A DNA stretch of 64,000 nt from NCBI RefSeq assembly GCF_039851975.1, contig NZ_CP156660.1, positions 1,989,035 to 2,053,034 on the forward strand, written 5' to 3'. The DNA comes from Desulfoscipio sp. XC116. GTDB taxonomy: Bacteria > Bacillota > Desulfotomaculia > Desulfotomaculales > Desulfallaceae. Below, in pieces: positions 17,455 through 36,604 of this stretch; positions within the stretch are counted from its first letter, which is position 1, and every line of letters begins with the position of its first letter. A program made the position numbers and the translations under genes. The notes beneath the pieces were generated by a model that was not told the DNA's origin, did no database searches, and was given only the letters and a program-made list of their open reading frames with translations.

Positions 17455-17488
17455 TATTTAAAATAACTTTCCAAATTAATATTAACCC
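17455..17488 (-). promoter_or_regulatory. Possible purine-operon promoter
   Basis: Minus-strand TTAATT, 17 bp, TAATAT just upstream of the aptamer. The -10 is good and the -35 is poor; the -35 lies at the junction with the duplicated unit, so the original promoter could have been remodelled. Confidence 0.35.
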
Positions 17489-17629
17489 ATGGATATTCCG
17501 ACAGTCAAGTACAACAAGCTGCAAAAAGAATTAACGTTTGCAGCTGCTTTTTGGCATCCAATTTTAAAGTTTGCTCGGCATTTGATGCATTTATTGTACC
17601 GCAATTATATCAATCAGTAAATTGGTTTT

Positions 17630-17820
17630 TCAATTTTCACCAAGCTCTGCAATCATCTGTTTGATTTTATCCAGGGTTTTGCGTTCCTGTTCCTTCGCTG
17701 CTATTATTTTTGCGCCCCCTTCTTATTCAGCCATGCTTCTTTTGACCGCCGGCAGGCTTTTCGGATTTAACGTTTCGCTCTCTTCTAACTTATATATGTC
17801 CTTGCTTATAATATAAATAT
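17630..17820 (-). pseudogene. Broken small ORF inside repeat copy 1
   Basis: Minus-strand frame ...SKDIYKLEESETLNPKSLPA...SMAE ends in TAA, and the adjacent frame continues GAKIIAAKEQERKTLDKIKQ...AELGEN to a TGA. The two pieces read like one protein interrupted by a frameshift; no start codon is apparent. Family not recognised. Confidence 0.4.
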
Positions 17821-17845
17821 TGATGTTTATGTAGTTAATCTTTTT

Positions 17846-17878
17846 AACGTTCCTCAATAAAATATAAACGCTAACGTT
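17846..17878 (+). promoter_or_regulatory. Paired AACGTT sites upstream of the HTH-Fic promoter
   Basis: Two TAACGTT palindromes at 17846-17851 and 17873-17878 (27 bp apart), the second abutting the -35 box. Further TTAACGTT copies occur at about 17529 and 17769. They are candidate operators for the adjacent HTH protein; inference only. Confidence 0.35.
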
Positions 17879-17905
17879 GATTCATTAAACTATTCCGTTT
17901 ATAAT
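17877..17905 (+). promoter_or_regulatory. Sigma-A promoter of the HTH-fic operon (copy 1)
   Basis: TTGATT, 17 bp, TATAAT, then GGAAGGAG and the HTH start. A near-consensus vegetative promoter; the identical promoter is at 21605-21633 in copy 2. Confidence 0.8.
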
Positions 17906-17928
17906 AAGATATTGGAAGGAGTAGTGGT

Positions 17929-18144
17929 ATGTCTGTATCTGAACAGCTTAAAATACTGTGTGTCAAGCTCGGAATAAGTGTTTCCGAACTCGGACGAATA
18001 TCGGGGAAAAGCCCGCAAGCTTTCAGCCAGAAAATGAAACGGGAGAGTTTTACGGTCGACGAATTGAAGCAAATTGCCGAGGCCGCCGGTTGTCGATATG
18101 AGGGCGCCTTTATTATGCCTTCCGGCGAAAAGGTCACGTACTAA
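17929..18144 (+). CDS. Small HTH (XRE-like) protein, copy 1
   Basis: 71-residue protein with a Cro/C1-type helix-turn-helix: LKILCVKLGISVSELGRISG followed by SPQAFSQKMKRESFTVDELK, i.e. most of the small protein is the DNA-binding fold. It lies 15 bp upstream of the fic gene on the same strand, with GGAAGGAG before its ATG. By position it is either an autoregulator of the pair or an antitoxin partner of Fic. Identical to the protein at 21657-21872. Confidence 0.8.
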   Translation: MSVSEQLKILCVKLGISVSELGRISGKSPQAFSQKMKRESFTVDELKQIAEAAGCRYEGAFIMPSGEKVTY

Positions 18145-18159
18145 AAGGGGGATTGTTCA

Positions 18160-18909
18160 ATGACTTTATATGATAAAATCGACCGCTACAAGATATCGCT
18201 TGATGAGCAACGTCCTTTTGAAGGCCACCTGCTCAATGAAATAAAGGGCTATTACCGTATTGGTCTCACCTGGTCGAGCAATGCCCTGGAAGGGAATACC
18301 CTCACCATTAGCGAGACAAAGGTGATACTGGAGGATGGGCTGACTGTTGGCGGTAAACCGCTTAAAGACACATTTGAGGCACTGGGGCATGCGCAAGCGT
18401 ATGACTTTATGTTCACGCTGCTGGGCAGCCGTCGTATCACCGAGGCTGACGCTCTAACAATGCACCGAATGTTTTATACAGGAATAGATGCCAAAGAAGC
18501 CGGCCACTATCGTGATCGTCCTGTCTTCATAACCGCTTCCAAGCATAAAGTGTGCGACGTGAAGCTGATCGGGCAGAAGATGGCGAAACTATTTCAATGG
18601 GTCGCCGAGGAGCGGGACAAATATCACCCAGTTAAGTTCGCAGCTCAGTTACACAAGCGATTCGTATTTATTCATCCTTTTATCGACGGCAACGGTCGAA
18701 TTTCCAGGCTGCTGATGAACACGGCTCTTATTCAGGACGGTTACATGCTGGCTGTGATCCCGCCGGTTTTGCGTCAGGAGTATAACAGCCTGCTGGAGCG
18801 AGCCCATAAAGATGACCGACCGTTTACGGATTTTATTGCCGAGCAGGTGTACGAGACGCAGAAAGAGATCATGCGGCTGCTGCACATTCCATTTCCAAAA
18901 CTATCATAA
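18160..18909 (+). CDS. Fic-domain protein with N-terminal inhibitory helix, copy 1
   Basis: 249-residue Fic/DOC family protein, presumed to transfer AMP (or another nucleotide moiety) to hydroxyls on target proteins. The catalytic loop HPFIDGNGRISR (near residues 172-183) is complete, with His, Asp and both Arg. The N-terminal SSNALEGNT near residue 40 fits the [S/T]xxxE[G/N] inhibition motif, so this is a self-inhibited class II Fic. AAGGGGG precedes the ATG. The target is unknown. Identical copy at 21888-22637. Confidence 0.9.
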   Translation: MTLYDKIDRYKISLDEQRPFEGHLLNEIKGYYRIGLTWSSNALEGNTLTISETKVILEDGLTVGGKPLKDTFEALGHAQAYDFMFTLLGSRRITEADALTMHRMFYTGIDAKEAGHYRDRPVFITASKHKVCDVKLIGQKMAKLFQWVAEERDKYHPVKFAAQLHKRFVFIHPFIDGNGRISRLLMNTALIQDGYMLAVIPPVLRQEYNSLLERAHKDDRPFTDFIAEQVYETQKEIMRLLHIPFPKLS

Positions 18910-21166: not shown

Positions 21167-21357
21167 AGAAAATTCCCACCACTTGTTAGCAAGAGCTAGC
21201 GGCTAGGTATTAACCCATGGATATTCCGACAGTCAAGTACAACAAGCTGCAAAAAGAATTAACGTTTGCAGCTGCTTTTTGGCATCCAATTTTAAAGTTT
21301 GCTCGGCATTTGATGCATTTATTGTACCGCAATTATATCAATCAGTAAATTGGTTTT

Positions 21358-21548
21358 TCAATTTTCACCAAGCTCTGCAATCATCTGTTTGATTTTATCC
21401 AGGGTTTTGCGTTCCTGTTCCTTCGCTGCTATTATTTTTGCGCCCCCTTCTTATTCAGCCATGCTTCTTTTGACCGCCGGCAGGCTTTTCGGATTTAACG
21501 TTTCGCTCTCTTCTAACTTATATATGTCCTTGCTTATAATATAAATAT
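21358..21548 (-). pseudogene. Broken small ORF inside repeat copy 2
   Basis: Identical to the interrupted frame at 17630-17820, with the same internal stop. The shared lesion shows the frame was already broken before the duplication. Confidence 0.4.
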
Positions 21549-21604
21549 TGATGTTTATGTAGTTAATCTTTTTAACGTTCCTCAATAAAATATAAACGCT
21601 AACG

Positions 21605-21633
21605 TTGATTCATTAAACTATTCCGTTTATAAT
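21605..21633 (+). promoter_or_regulatory. Sigma-A promoter of the HTH-fic operon (copy 2)
   Basis: TTGATT, 17 bp, TATAAT; identical to copy 1. Confidence 0.8.
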
Positions 21634-21656
21634 AAGATATTGGAAGGAGTAGTGGT

Positions 21657-21872
21657 ATGTCTGTATCTGAACAGCTTAAAATACTGTGTGTCAAGCTCGG
21701 AATAAGTGTTTCCGAACTCGGACGAATATCGGGGAAAAGCCCGCAAGCTTTCAGCCAGAAAATGAAACGGGAGAGTTTTACGGTCGACGAATTGAAGCAA
21801 ATTGCCGAGGCCGCCGGTTGTCGATATGAGGGCGCCTTTATTATGCCTTCCGGCGAAAAGGTCACGTACTAA
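21657..21872 (+). CDS. Small HTH (XRE-like) protein, copy 2
   Basis: Residue-for-residue identical to the 71-residue protein at 17929-18144, with the same ribosome site and 15-bp gap to fic. Complete identity implies a recent duplication or ongoing gene conversion. Confidence 0.8.
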   Translation: MSVSEQLKILCVKLGISVSELGRISGKSPQAFSQKMKRESFTVDELKQIAEAAGCRYEGAFIMPSGEKVTY

Positions 21873-21887
21873 AAGGGGGATTGTTCA

Positions 21888-22637
21888 ATGACTTTATATG
21901 ATAAAATCGACCGCTACAAGATATCGCTTGATGAGCAACGTCCTTTTGAAGGCCACCTGCTCAATGAAATAAAGGGCTATTACCGTATTGGTCTCACCTG
22001 GTCGAGCAATGCCCTGGAAGGGAATACCCTCACCATTAGCGAGACAAAGGTGATACTGGAGGATGGGCTGACTGTTGGCGGTAAACCGCTTAAAGACACA
22101 TTTGAGGCACTGGGGCATGCGCAAGCGTATGACTTTATGTTCACGCTGCTGGGCAGCCGTCGTATCACCGAGGCTGACGCTCTAACAATGCACCGAATGT
22201 TTTATACAGGAATAGATGCCAAAGAAGCCGGCCACTATCGTGATCGTCCTGTCTTCATAACCGCTTCCAAGCATAAAGTGTGCGACGTGAAGCTGATCGG
22301 GCAGAAGATGGCGAAACTATTTCAATGGGTCGCCGAGGAGCGGGACAAATATCACCCAGTTAAGTTCGCAGCTCAGTTACACAAGCGATTCGTATTTATT
22401 CATCCTTTTATCGACGGCAACGGTCGAATTTCCAGGCTGCTGATGAACACGGCTCTTATTCAGGACGGTTACATGCTGGCTGTGATCCCGCCGGTTTTGC
22501 GTCAGGAGTATAACAGCCTGCTGGAGCGAGCCCATAAAGATGACCGACCGTTTACGGATTTTATTGCCGAGCAGGTGTACGAGACGCAGAAAGAGATCAT
22601 GCGGCTGCTGCACATTCCATTTCCAAAACTATCATAA
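21888..22637 (+). CDS. Fic-domain protein with N-terminal inhibitory helix, copy 2
   Basis: Identical to the 249-residue Fic protein at 18160-18909, with both the catalytic HPFIDGNGRISR loop and the inhibitory SSNALEGNT helix intact. It converges on guaA, whose 3' end is 128 bp away, with a terminator on each strand between them. Confidence 0.9.
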   Translation: MTLYDKIDRYKISLDEQRPFEGHLLNEIKGYYRIGLTWSSNALEGNTLTISETKVILEDGLTVGGKPLKDTFEALGHAQAYDFMFTLLGSRRITEADALTMHRMFYTGIDAKEAGHYRDRPVFITASKHKVCDVKLIGQKMAKLFQWVAEERDKYHPVKFAAQLHKRFVFIHPFIDGNGRISRLLMNTALIQDGYMLAVIPPVLRQEYNSLLERAHKDDRPFTDFIAEQVYETQKEIMRLLHIPFPKLS

Positions 22638-27949: not shown

Positions 27950-29398
27950 TTACTTTAAACTATTGATTCTTTCCCTGGTGGAAACAATACTGGTAATCTT
28001 GACACCAAAGTTTTCGTTAACTACAACCACTTCTCCCCTGGCTACCAGTTTACCGTTGATTAGAATATCCACCGGTTCATCAACCAGCGTTTCTAATTCC
28101 ACTATAGCGCCGGGAGTCATATGTAACACCTCGTTAATCTGCTTTTTAGTACTGCCCAGTACCACCGACACTTTCAAAGGAATATCCAGCAACAAGTTTA
28201 GTTTTTCAGAATCTACCTGTGTCATTACCGATTTATCATAGCTTTGGTCGGTTGTTTTTAAGTTATCTTGCTCCTGAGCGGCTTTTACGGCATTATCATC
28301 AGGCAACTGCATCGGGCGGTCCGTTACTTTTTCCAGCACATCCGTCGTAGCCTTTACGCTTGGCTCAGCCATTGGCGGTTCGGTTTCGACATCTTCCATG
28401 CCACCGAACTTTTCCCAAAGCAGATTGGTCTGCTCACGGGCCGTATGTATATCTATCACCTGCATGATATTGGTATCCAGCAAACCATCAATTATCATGC
28501 GGAAATAAATTACCACAATGGGATCATCAAAAGGCAAATCAACGTTCATTTTATCTGTTTCCATCACCATATTAGTTTCCGGAGGCAGTATGTTAATACT
28601 TCTTTCCAGCATATCGGCCAGTGATGTCGAAGCAGTGCCGATCATTTGGTTCATGGCTTCCGAAGCGGCACTGATTTCCAAATCGGTTATTTTTTCGGGT
28701 AAATCCGTGCCGTCGCCGCCCATCATTAAATTAGCCATGACCATAGCGTCACGCAATTTAATTACCAGCACATTGTAACCGCTGAGACCTTCTCTAAATT
28801 GTACCTTAATAATTAAGTATGGTAAGTTAAACTCTTTTAAAAAGTCTTTTTTTCGGGTAATAATCACTTTGGGACTGGTAATTTGCACCCGCTTGTTTAG
28901 TAATTGGGACAGCGTCGTAGCTGAAGAACCCATGGATATATTACCAATTTCGCCCAGAGCATCTTTCTCTTCGGATGTTAAAGCCGACTGCATTTTATCA
29001 TCCGATAATGCTTCTTTATTCTCGTATGCATCATCAACAATATTAACATCAACATCATCGAGTTGTTCATATCCGCCATCTTCACCGGTATTAAACAGTG
29101 CATTAATTTCATCCTGGCTTAATCCCTGGTCAGCTGCCGGGGACTGCTCCTGTTCACCGCTTCCCTGGGCCGCTTTGAGCATGGCATCTATATCATCCTG
29201 GCCCAATCCCTGGTCATCCGCCTCGGACTGCTCTCGCTCACCGCTGCCCTGAGCCGCTTTAAGCATGGCATCTATATCATCCTGGCCCAATCCCTGGTCA
29301 TCCGCCTCGGACTGCTCTCGCTCACCGCTGCCCTGAGCCGCTTTAAGCATGGCATCTATATCATCCTGCTGCAGCATCTTATCTTTAGTATCACTCAT
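27950..29398 (-). CDS. fliY: Flagellar switch/CheY-P phosphatase FliY with triplicated N-terminal motif
   Basis: 482 residues. The C-terminal 80 residues are a FliN/SpoA domain (LDIPLKVSVVLGSTKKQINE). The middle (about 140-330) is a CheC-type phosphatase with both active-site helices: LGEIGNISMGSSATTL and SEAMNQMIGTASTSL, each with the E-x-x-N pair. The N-terminus is unusual: QDDIDAMLKAAQGSGE occurs three times at a 28-residue period, then LSQDEINALF once more; this resembles the CheY-P docking peptide normally present once. ATG 29398 overlaps the fliM stop by 8 bases. Last gene of the cluster. Confidence 0.93.
   Translation of the reverse strand: MSDTKDKMLQQDDIDAMLKAAQGSGEREQSEADDQGLGQDDIDAMLKAAQGSGEREQSEADDQGLGQDDIDAMLKAAQGSGEQEQSPAADQGLSQDEINALFNTGEDGGYEQLDDVDVNIVDDAYENKEALSDDKMQSALTSEEKDALGEIGNISMGSSATTLSQLLNKRVQITSPKVIITRKKDFLKEFNLPYLIIKVQFREGLSGYNVLVIKLRDAMVMANLMMGGDGTDLPEKITDLEISAASEAMNQMIGTASTSLADMLERSINILPPETNMVMETDKMNVDLPFDDPIVVIYFRMIIDGLLDTNIMQVIDIHTAREQTNLLWEKFGGMEDVETEPPMAEPSVKATTDVLEKVTDRPMQLPDDNAVKAAQEQDNLKTTDQSYDKSVMTQVDSEKLNLLLDIPLKVSVVLGSTKKQINEVLHMTPGAIVELETLVDEPVDILINGKLVARGEVVVVNENFGVKITSIVSTRERINSLK
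29120..29370 (-). repeat. 84-bp tandem repeat within fliY
   Basis: Three units of 84 bp (28 codons); for instance CCTCGGACTGCTCTCGCTCA occurs at 29221 and 29305. The first two units are almost identical in DNA, the third diverges slightly, and the reading frame is preserved. Confidence 0.9.
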
Positions 29399-30383
29399 CT
29401 TTATCTTTCCTTTCAATAAGTGAAACAATTTGGACAGCCAAATTGTCCCCCACCGAACCCACCTGAGCACCGAATTTTACATTTTCCCCTACATAGACAT
29501 CCAAATCACTGTCCACGTTTTTTTCCAATACTATTACATCACCCAGCTGGACCTGCAAAAAATCCTCTATAGTAACCGAAGCTTCACCAATTGTAGCGGT
29601 AATGTCAACATAACAATGACTCAACCAGTGATTAATATGCTTATAGTTATTTTCAAAACCGGATGGCAATTGCCTGATAAACTGTTGACGCACTGAAAGC
29701 TTGGCTATGACCGGGTCCAACATAATATACGGCAGGCAAAGGTTAATCATACCCTCATCGCTTTCACCCACAACAACAGAAAAAGTTAACAAAGCCACCA
29801 CTTCGTTTGGTGAATAAAGCTGCTGCAAGCGGGGGTTGGTTTCTATGGACCGCACCTCGGGCTTGATCTCATAAATATCCTGCCAGGTGGGAACCAGGTA
29901 ATCAAGAATACGGGCCATGATTTTTTTGGTAACCTGTATTTCAATGTCAGTTAACTCCCGGTTTAAGTCACCGGTGGTACCGCCGCCTCCGAACATTAAA
30001 TCAATAACAGGAAAAATAAAACTTGTATTTGCCTCCATAATAGCCGAACCATTAAGAGGCAAAAGATCAAAAACAGTTAGCACCGTGGGTGTGGGAATAG
30101 AGCGAATAAACTCATCAAAAATAATCTGGCTCACGGAGACCAGTTCAATATTTACATTGCTTCTCAAATAGCCGAACAAAAAACTGGATAAATGTCTGGC
30201 ATAGTGTTGGTGAAGCATTTCCAAGGTCCTTAAATGTTCCTTGGAAAATTTATTAGGCCTGCGAAAGTCGTAATTCTTGACCTTGGGCGCCATGGTGCTT
30301 TCTATCTCATCAACCGGCAAATTACCATCGGTCAAGGCCTGTAGCATAGCATCAATTTCGTTCTGGGATAATATTTCCTGCAT
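29391..30383 (-). CDS. fliM: Flagellar motor switch protein FliM
   Basis: 330 residues. The N-terminal EILSQNEIDAMLQAL is the CheY-P binding peptide; the middle domain (KNYDFRRPNKFSKEHLRTLE onward, with LMFGGGGTTGD) contacts FliG; the C-terminal SpoA-like domain (GEASVTIEDFLQVQLGDVIV) joins FliN/FliY in the C-ring. Normal length. ATG after GAGGGAG. It is between cheY and fliY, the usual Gram-positive order for these genes. Confidence 0.96.
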   Translation of the reverse strand: MQEILSQNEIDAMLQALTDGNLPVDEIESTMAPKVKNYDFRRPNKFSKEHLRTLEMLHQHYARHLSSFLFGYLRSNVNIELVSVSQIIFDEFIRSIPTPTVLTVFDLLPLNGSAIMEANTSFIFPVIDLMFGGGGTTGDLNRELTDIEIQVTKKIMARILDYLVPTWQDIYEIKPEVRSIETNPRLQQLYSPNEVVALLTFSVVVGESDEGMINLCLPYIMLDPVIAKLSVRQQFIRQLPSGFENNYKHINHWLSHCYVDITATIGEASVTIEDFLQVQLGDVIVLEKNVDSDLDVYVGENVKFGAQVGSVGDNLAVQIVSLIERKDKDE

Positions 30384-35722: not shown

Positions 35723-36604
35723 TTACTTAAAAAGCCTGGCTAGCTTACTTATAAAACCGCGTAGACTTCCTTCGGCTTCTACCTTTAAATCCTTTTTTAG
35801 TATACTATAAGCAATTGCTTTAACGGCTTCGGCCACATTGGATTGAGGTTTGGCCAGAATGAAAGGCTTTTGGTTTTTAACCGCACTGACAACCAATTGA
35901 TTATATGGAATAGTGCCCAGGTTGGTCAGTTTTATGGTTAAATACCTTTCAGACAAATTACTTAAGCGTTGTACGGAACTAAACGACTCCCCACTGCCGT
36001 GCGATTGATTGACTACCAAGCCAACTTCCTTATGCAATTTAAATCTATCCAATACTTTTATTAAACCATATGCATCGGTCAGTGATGTAGGTTCCGGAGT
36101 GATCACCGTGTACACCTCGTCAGCCGCCGCGCAAAAAGCTAATACATCCTTGGAAATTCCCGCCCCGGTATCAATTAAAACAAAGTCAGCCAGGCTATTT
36201 AATTTTTCAATACTGTTCAATAACTTGGAACGCTGACTGCCGGTGAGATTGGCCAGTTCCAAAAAACCGGCCCCACCTGAAATAATTTTAATACCCGCCG
36301 GACCCGGCATCATGATATCCCAGATGGGCACATCTCGAAATAAATGATCATATAAATTAAGTGATGGTATTATACCCAGCAACACTTCCACATTGGCCAG
36401 CCCCAAGTCGGCGTCAAGAACAATCACACGCTGTCCTTCCTGCGCCAGGGCTATGGCCAGATTGACTGTCAGGTTGGTTTTACCCACACCACCTTTACCG
36501 CTGGTAACGGTAAGTACCCGTGGTCCCCGGTAAGGCGCGCCATCCTGGGGGGGGATAACCTCCGAGCGTCTCTCTTTGAGAATGTTACGTTGGAAAATCC
36601 TCAT
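35723..36604 (-). CDS. flhG: Flagellar number regulator FlhG (YlxH, MinD-like ATPase)
   Basis: 293 residues. Deviant Walker A TSGKGGVGKTNLTVNLA near residue 35, LDADLGLANVEVLLG, and FVLIDTGAGI identify a ParA/MinD-family ATPase. It ends in a basic amphipathic helix (FISKLARLFK) suited to membrane binding. It partners with FlhF, whose 3' end it overlaps by 20 bases, to set flagellar number and placement. Confidence 0.94.
   Translation of the reverse strand: MRIFQRNILKERRSEVIPPQDGAPYRGPRVLTVTSGKGGVGKTNLTVNLAIALAQEGQRVIVLDADLGLANVEVLLGIIPSLNLYDHLFRDVPIWDIMMPGPAGIKIISGGAGFLELANLTGSQRSKLLNSIEKLNSLADFVLIDTGAGISKDVLAFCAAADEVYTVITPEPTSLTDAYGLIKVLDRFKLHKEVGLVVNQSHGSGESFSSVQRLSNLSERYLTIKLTNLGTIPYNQLVVSAVKNQKPFILAKPQSNVAEAVKAIAYSILKKDLKVEAEGSLRGFISKLARLFK

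Follow-up and report, generated by a model that had tools for sequence, protein, structure and literature searches.

The window analysed here, a stretch of 64,000 nucleotides from the sulfate-reducing bacterium Desulfoscipio sp. XC116 (contig NZ_CP156660.1), encodes a group of flagellar and chemotaxis genes on a single strand. Upstream genes and fliY itself follow in the order flhF, flhG, cheD, cheR, cheC, cheY, fliM, fliY, with others located between flhG and cheD. The names cheC, cheY, fliM, fliY and flhG are based on family or structure matches, while flhF, cheD and cheR are names that we presume from sequence features. The features relevant to this analysis are:

27950..29398, minus strand: fliY, 482 aa, NCBIfam NF005995 with 424.2 bits, over the family cut-off of 218; Pfam CheC and FliMN_C; structural model
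29285..29368, minus strand: repeat unit 1, residues 11-38, QDDIDAML, predicted helix 9-22
29201..29284, minus strand: repeat unit 2, residues 39-66, DNA identical to unit 1, predicted helix 39-50
29117..29200, minus strand: repeat unit 3, residues 67-94, 72 of 84 bases as in unit 1, predicted helix 68-77
29093..29116, minus strand: fourth motif QDEINALF, residues 95-102, predicted helix 95-107
29391..30383, minus strand: fliM, 330 aa, single N-terminal motif LSQNEIDAML, TIGR01397 with 301.6 bits
30401..30766, minus strand: cheY, 121 aa, candidate ligand, Thermotoga CheY 1tmy with E 2.7e-50
35723..36604, minus strand: flhG, 293 aa, second candidate ligand, 4rz2 with E 6.6e-48

According to Pfam and the structural model, FliY is composed of an N-terminal tail (residues 1-138), a CheC-like domain (139-333), a linker and a SpoA/FliN-type domain (397-482). 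Pfam CheC matched the protein with 72.9 bits and PF01052 (FliMN_C, SpoA) matched residues 402-472 with 83.2 bits; the nearest solved chain was 4hyn (E 3.1e-37). The pattern E..N...P, which we take to be the CheC-type active-site motif, occurs twice in the CheC-like domain (residues 146 and 243) and both sites are intact. The start of fliY (ATG) lies within the end of fliM, the two genes sharing 8 bp. In its order of docking motif, CheC-like domain and SpoA domain the protein resembles the FliY of Bacillota and Thermotoga (NF005995; CheC-like domain 4hyn). These usually have one docking motif (179 of 191 distinct FliYs), and although a single N-terminal motif is not usually regarded as defining for the family, the window FliY departs from this arrangement with four.

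Specifically, the motifs follow each other in steps of 28 residues: QDDIDAML begins three times, at residue 11, at 39 and at 67, and QDEINALF begins at residue 95. The tail reads QDDIDAMLKAAQGSGEREQSEADDQGLG twice, followed by a third unit with an altered linker and then by SQDEINALF. All four copies fit an EIDAL core of the form Q-x-(D/E)-I-(D/N)-x-(L/M)-(L/F), in which the Q, the I and the acidic and hydrophobic positions are preset by the motif-finding pattern, so that we place no weight on their being constant. Tandem Repeats Finder reported a period of 84, 3.1 copies and 93% matches with a score of 436, the highest of eight rows for the window. Units 1 and 2 are the same at 84 of 84 bases, unit 3 is changed at 12 of 84 (four of these within the first 16 codons, all silent relative to unit 1), and unit 4 has kept the motif alone. 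Copy 1 is most likely the ancestral motif, judging from the single-motif relatives in the family, which have LLQQ(D/E)E(I/V)DAL at this position; copies 2-4 would then be the extras. Elsewhere in the window genome no array was found, residues 1-107 of FliY matching FliY itself alone (E up to 10), and no match was found in plasmid records. An assembly error or repeat artefact is unlikely, because the window contig matches in size the hybrid PacBio/Illumina assembly of Desulfoscipio sp. strain L (chromosome of 4,259,676 bp and plasmid of 1,530 bp; PMC12896167) and because other species carry arrays.

The initial annotation of this DNA had described a repeated motif with a 28-residue period followed by LSQDEINALF and had read the repeats as docking-like peptides on a flexible, acidic tether. 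We find the same arrangement, the repeats being EIDAL-type motifs on a tail with a net charge of -29 across its first 138 residues and with linkers predicted to be disordered. It had also concluded from the near-identical DNA that the expansion was recent, which applies to units 1 and 2 but overstates the case for unit 3 and for unit 4. One duplication is recent, but the array itself is not, since arrays also occur in relatives.

An AlphaFold model of FliY (34-sequence alignment, mean pLDDT 72.6, pTM 0.49) places one helix of middling confidence on each motif, at residues 9-22, 39-50, 68-77 and 95-107. The segments between these helices have pLDDT values below 50, and the array is followed by a confident CheC-like domain and then by the SpoA-type domain.

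Arrays are rare among FliY proteins. The 191 distinct FliYs comprised 179 with a single motif, seven with 3-5 motifs, three in which none was found and two that were unreadable. Given this rarity (7/191), arrays are not needed for FliY function in general. In the genus of the window, FliY was found in five of seven genomes and all five carry arrays (4, 5, 3, 5 and 3 motifs); one genome of a sister genus has a three-motif array, and five further members of the window's family have a single motif each. Copy number thus ranges from 3 to 5 between array species, and so does the spacing, which is 28 residues in the window and in the sister genus, 25 then 20 in G006, 27 in G004, 19-20 in G002, and 17 and 20 in G001. 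The array relatives have retained the motif while linkers and spacing vary. In the order of the window, 90 of 113 genomes had a FliY match, and the 100 loci obtained (some genomes appearing twice) gave six arrays, 92 single motifs, one unreadable N-terminus (L022) and one single motif in a FliY that shares its frame with FliM (L032). At this last locus, in genome G063, the two proteins are read through as 748 aa without an intervening stop, by fusion or by a lost stop. In genome G033 another FliY (L086) has two consecutive CheC-like domains in a frame of 578 aa. Three FliY-like proteins (L149, L177 and L190, L177 being a Candidatus Arthromitus record) had no docking motif that the pattern could find.

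Beyond the order, the best 80 of 506 relatives (from named genomes) gave 76 single motifs, four in which the motif was not found or was unreadable, and no arrays. A draw across the phylum had FliY in 270 of 398 genomes, and the 20 picked by length among the matches listed were all single-motif. A profile of the array was searched against several groups, which overlap, so that the counts are not additive; the searches were confined to the window's phylum, and two-motif arrays could be missed by them. In the class, represented by the same 113 genomes as the order, six genomes had arrays with 67-148 bits, and the next best match, at 33 bits, was single-motif. The phylum draw gave four array genomes out of 398, three of them in the window's family, and it revealed a three-motif FliY array with 27-residue spacing in G118, a member of a distant Bacillota family. 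Within the groups of G118 itself the profile found one array genome among 21 of its order and one among 46 of its class, G118 both times. A further group gave none in 22 genomes, and in another class the two weak matches among 391 genomes both turned out to be single-motif.

From its isolation, the G118 array is apparently an independent expansion. Within the window's family, a tree of FliY domains requires one change for the arrays, so that a single origin has modest support (72/78; 74% of 200 bootstrap trees). The expansion appears to be a matter of FliY and not of FliM. The window FliM, with its core SQNEIDAML, shares the EIDAL core of the FliY copies, and its N-terminal CheY-P-binding peptide is present once where FliY has four. 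Among 172 FliM loci (some genomes appearing twice) the docking motif occurred once in 170 and was degenerate in two, and no array was found. We also considered whether the change from L to M in FliM (EIDAML) was tied to the array copies, but dropped this idea, as array copies with M also occur where FliM has LL. EIDAL motifs outside FliM have been reported to occur sporadically in FliN and FliY (PMC6946799); the available text of that study makes no mention of tandem copies, whereas those of the window FliY are in tandem. In the titles and abstract openings of the literature searched we found no description of tandem EIDAL motifs. The FliY protein and its single EIDAL motif are known; what appears to be new is the tandem array, together with its parallel in another family.

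The strongest indication of selection comes from one copy pair in one relative, outside the window. The pair consists of copies 2 and 3 of the sister-genus array, which are the same at 16 of 16 residues (QDDIDALIRAAQNGGQ) and differ at 10 of 48 bases, all silent, while their linkers diverge past the 16-residue stretch. Random draws of 10 changes kept the protein in none of 2,000,000 cases, a rough yardstick given that uniform substitution is assumed. Ten silent changes with no residue change, together with the differing linkers, argue for selection on each helix and against recent gene conversion. Units 1 and 3 of the window give a weaker signal, with four silent changes for which 213 of 200,000 draws kept the protein. 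Some other pairs are less clean: three non-silent changes directly past the motif separate copies 2 and 3 of G118, and one inside it separates copies 1 and 3 of G002. Judged by the sister-genus pair, the extra copies of the docking helix look to be under selection.

The window encodes two candidate ligands. CheY aligns over 118 of its 121 residues with Thermotoga CheY (1tmy, 4iga), and its gene lies two genes upstream of fliY, adjoining fliM. No second close CheY was found in the window genome, the next matches being 37-38% identical. Binding of CheY-P to the EIDALL motif has been reported for FliM and for FliY (PMC9126983). The second candidate is the assembly ATPase FlhG. In Geobacillus, the N-terminal 36 residues of FliY (FliY-N36) are reported to be necessary and sufficient for FlhG binding, which is independent of nucleotide, and the FlhG dimer with ATP to offer two sites (PMC12327844); B. 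subtilis FlhG is reported to bind FliY and not FliM (PMC12826062). The region of FliY concerned is the same one, and the window flhG lies on the same strand and in the same gene cluster. Its residues K183, R213 and Y221 align with Geobacillus K177, R207 and F215, so that two are kept and one is changed from Phe to Tyr; the alignment uses an inferred numbering offset of 8 for 4rz2, which all three residue types fit, and takes 207 for a contact residue printed both as 277 and as 207 in PMC12327844. The window differs from the described FliY-N36/FlhG docking in its repeated motif and in an FlhG in which no DQAxxLR motif was found. In B. subtilis this N-terminal element is reportedly linked with the activation of FlhF (PMC12327844), and since it is missing, the role of the window FlhG may be different.

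Taken together, we consider it about an even chance that the FliY array consists of working docking helices with CheY-P as the main ligand, feeding the FliY phosphatase. Residues 1 to about 110 would form a flexible acidic tail with four working EIDAL docking helices, each of which would fold against the helix-binding face of CheY-P. With several CheY-P kept near the two CheC-type catalytic sites of one FliY, the switch would capture and turn over more CheY-P. The reading is supported by arrays in all five FliY-bearing members of the genus and in the sister genus, with the motif kept and the linkers variable, by the array in a distant family, by the silent-change pair, by one predicted helix per motif and by the intact CheC-type motifs. 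It is further supported by a close CheY that adjoins fliM without a second close copy and by the reported binding of CheY-P to EIDALL (PMC9126983). It is weakened by the reported binding of FlhG to the same region of FliY (PMC12327844), by the rarity of arrays and by a selection signal that is strongest in a single copy pair outside the window. Binding by every copy, the role of CheY-P as main ligand and an effect of valency on signalling are inferred; each motor subunit could probably hold several signal or assembly proteins together. The initial interpretation is partly supported, by the EIDAL-type motifs, the acidic disordered tail, the presence of both CheC-type motifs and a copy number that varies between species. 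CheY-P, the partner it had named, is still a candidate but not the sole one, as FliY-N36 binds FlhG in Geobacillus, a binder of the same region that had been overlooked.

The array might instead be mainly a docking platform for FlhG, a possible explanation that we regard as somewhat doubtful. One FliY tail would hold several FlhG, or both sites of the ATP dimer, and a stronger delivery of FliM/FliY to new C-rings would set flagellar number or place. FlhG fits at least as well as CheY-P in one respect, since in B. subtilis it binds FliY and not FliM and here FliY was expanded while FliM remained single. The sufficiency of FliY-N36, the two sites of the dimer and the K and R kept at two of the three reported residues point the same way. 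However, the third of these is changed, if conservatively, to Y, any benefit from several FlhG on one FliY is a supposition, and the lack of DQAxxLR counts against an unchanged role. Neutral expansion, by unequal crossing-over or slippage in a length-tolerant tail and with a copy number that has no effect, seems unlikely to us. It would agree with the identical DNA of units 1 and 2, with the shifts of copy number and spacing between species and with the sufficiency of one motif in 179 of 191 FliYs, but it accords poorly with ten differences in the 16 codons compared in the sister genus that are all silent, with arrays kept in six of six related FliY genomes (genus and sister genus) and with an array in a second lineage. 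Very unlikely, in our estimate, is a buffer that holds CheY-P at the ring without hastening its decay and that supplies FliM or competes with it. The FliM motif, taken as the switch input (PMC6946799), has stayed single while FliY expanded, as a buffer might predict, but both FliY catalytic motifs are intact and captured CheY-P should therefore be dephosphorylated and not merely held.

CheY-P docking and FlhG docking may also be combined. We tentatively suggest, as a distinctly doubtful possibility, that the array makes FliY a multivalent hub for FlhG and several CheY-P at the same time. Motif number would then set both the manner of C-ring building and the speed of signal clearing at the switch, and such a hub would have evolved at least twice in Bacillota. 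If this were true, motor behaviour would be tuned across lineages via repeat number. Across related species and one unrelated lineage, nature offers this motor protein with 1, 3, 4 or 5 copies of a docking peptide that has been well studied. Such a series of valencies makes it possible to test directly how the turnover of CheY-P at the switch depends on the number of docking sites, and how a single FliY motif is shared between CheY-P and FlhG.

Apart from the fliY repeats, the window holds a duplicated segment at 17480-18909 and 21208-22637, 3,728 bases apart, with 300 bases that are 100% identical and with identical frames of 249 aa, which we take to be Fic-like based on an HPFxDGNGR motif.
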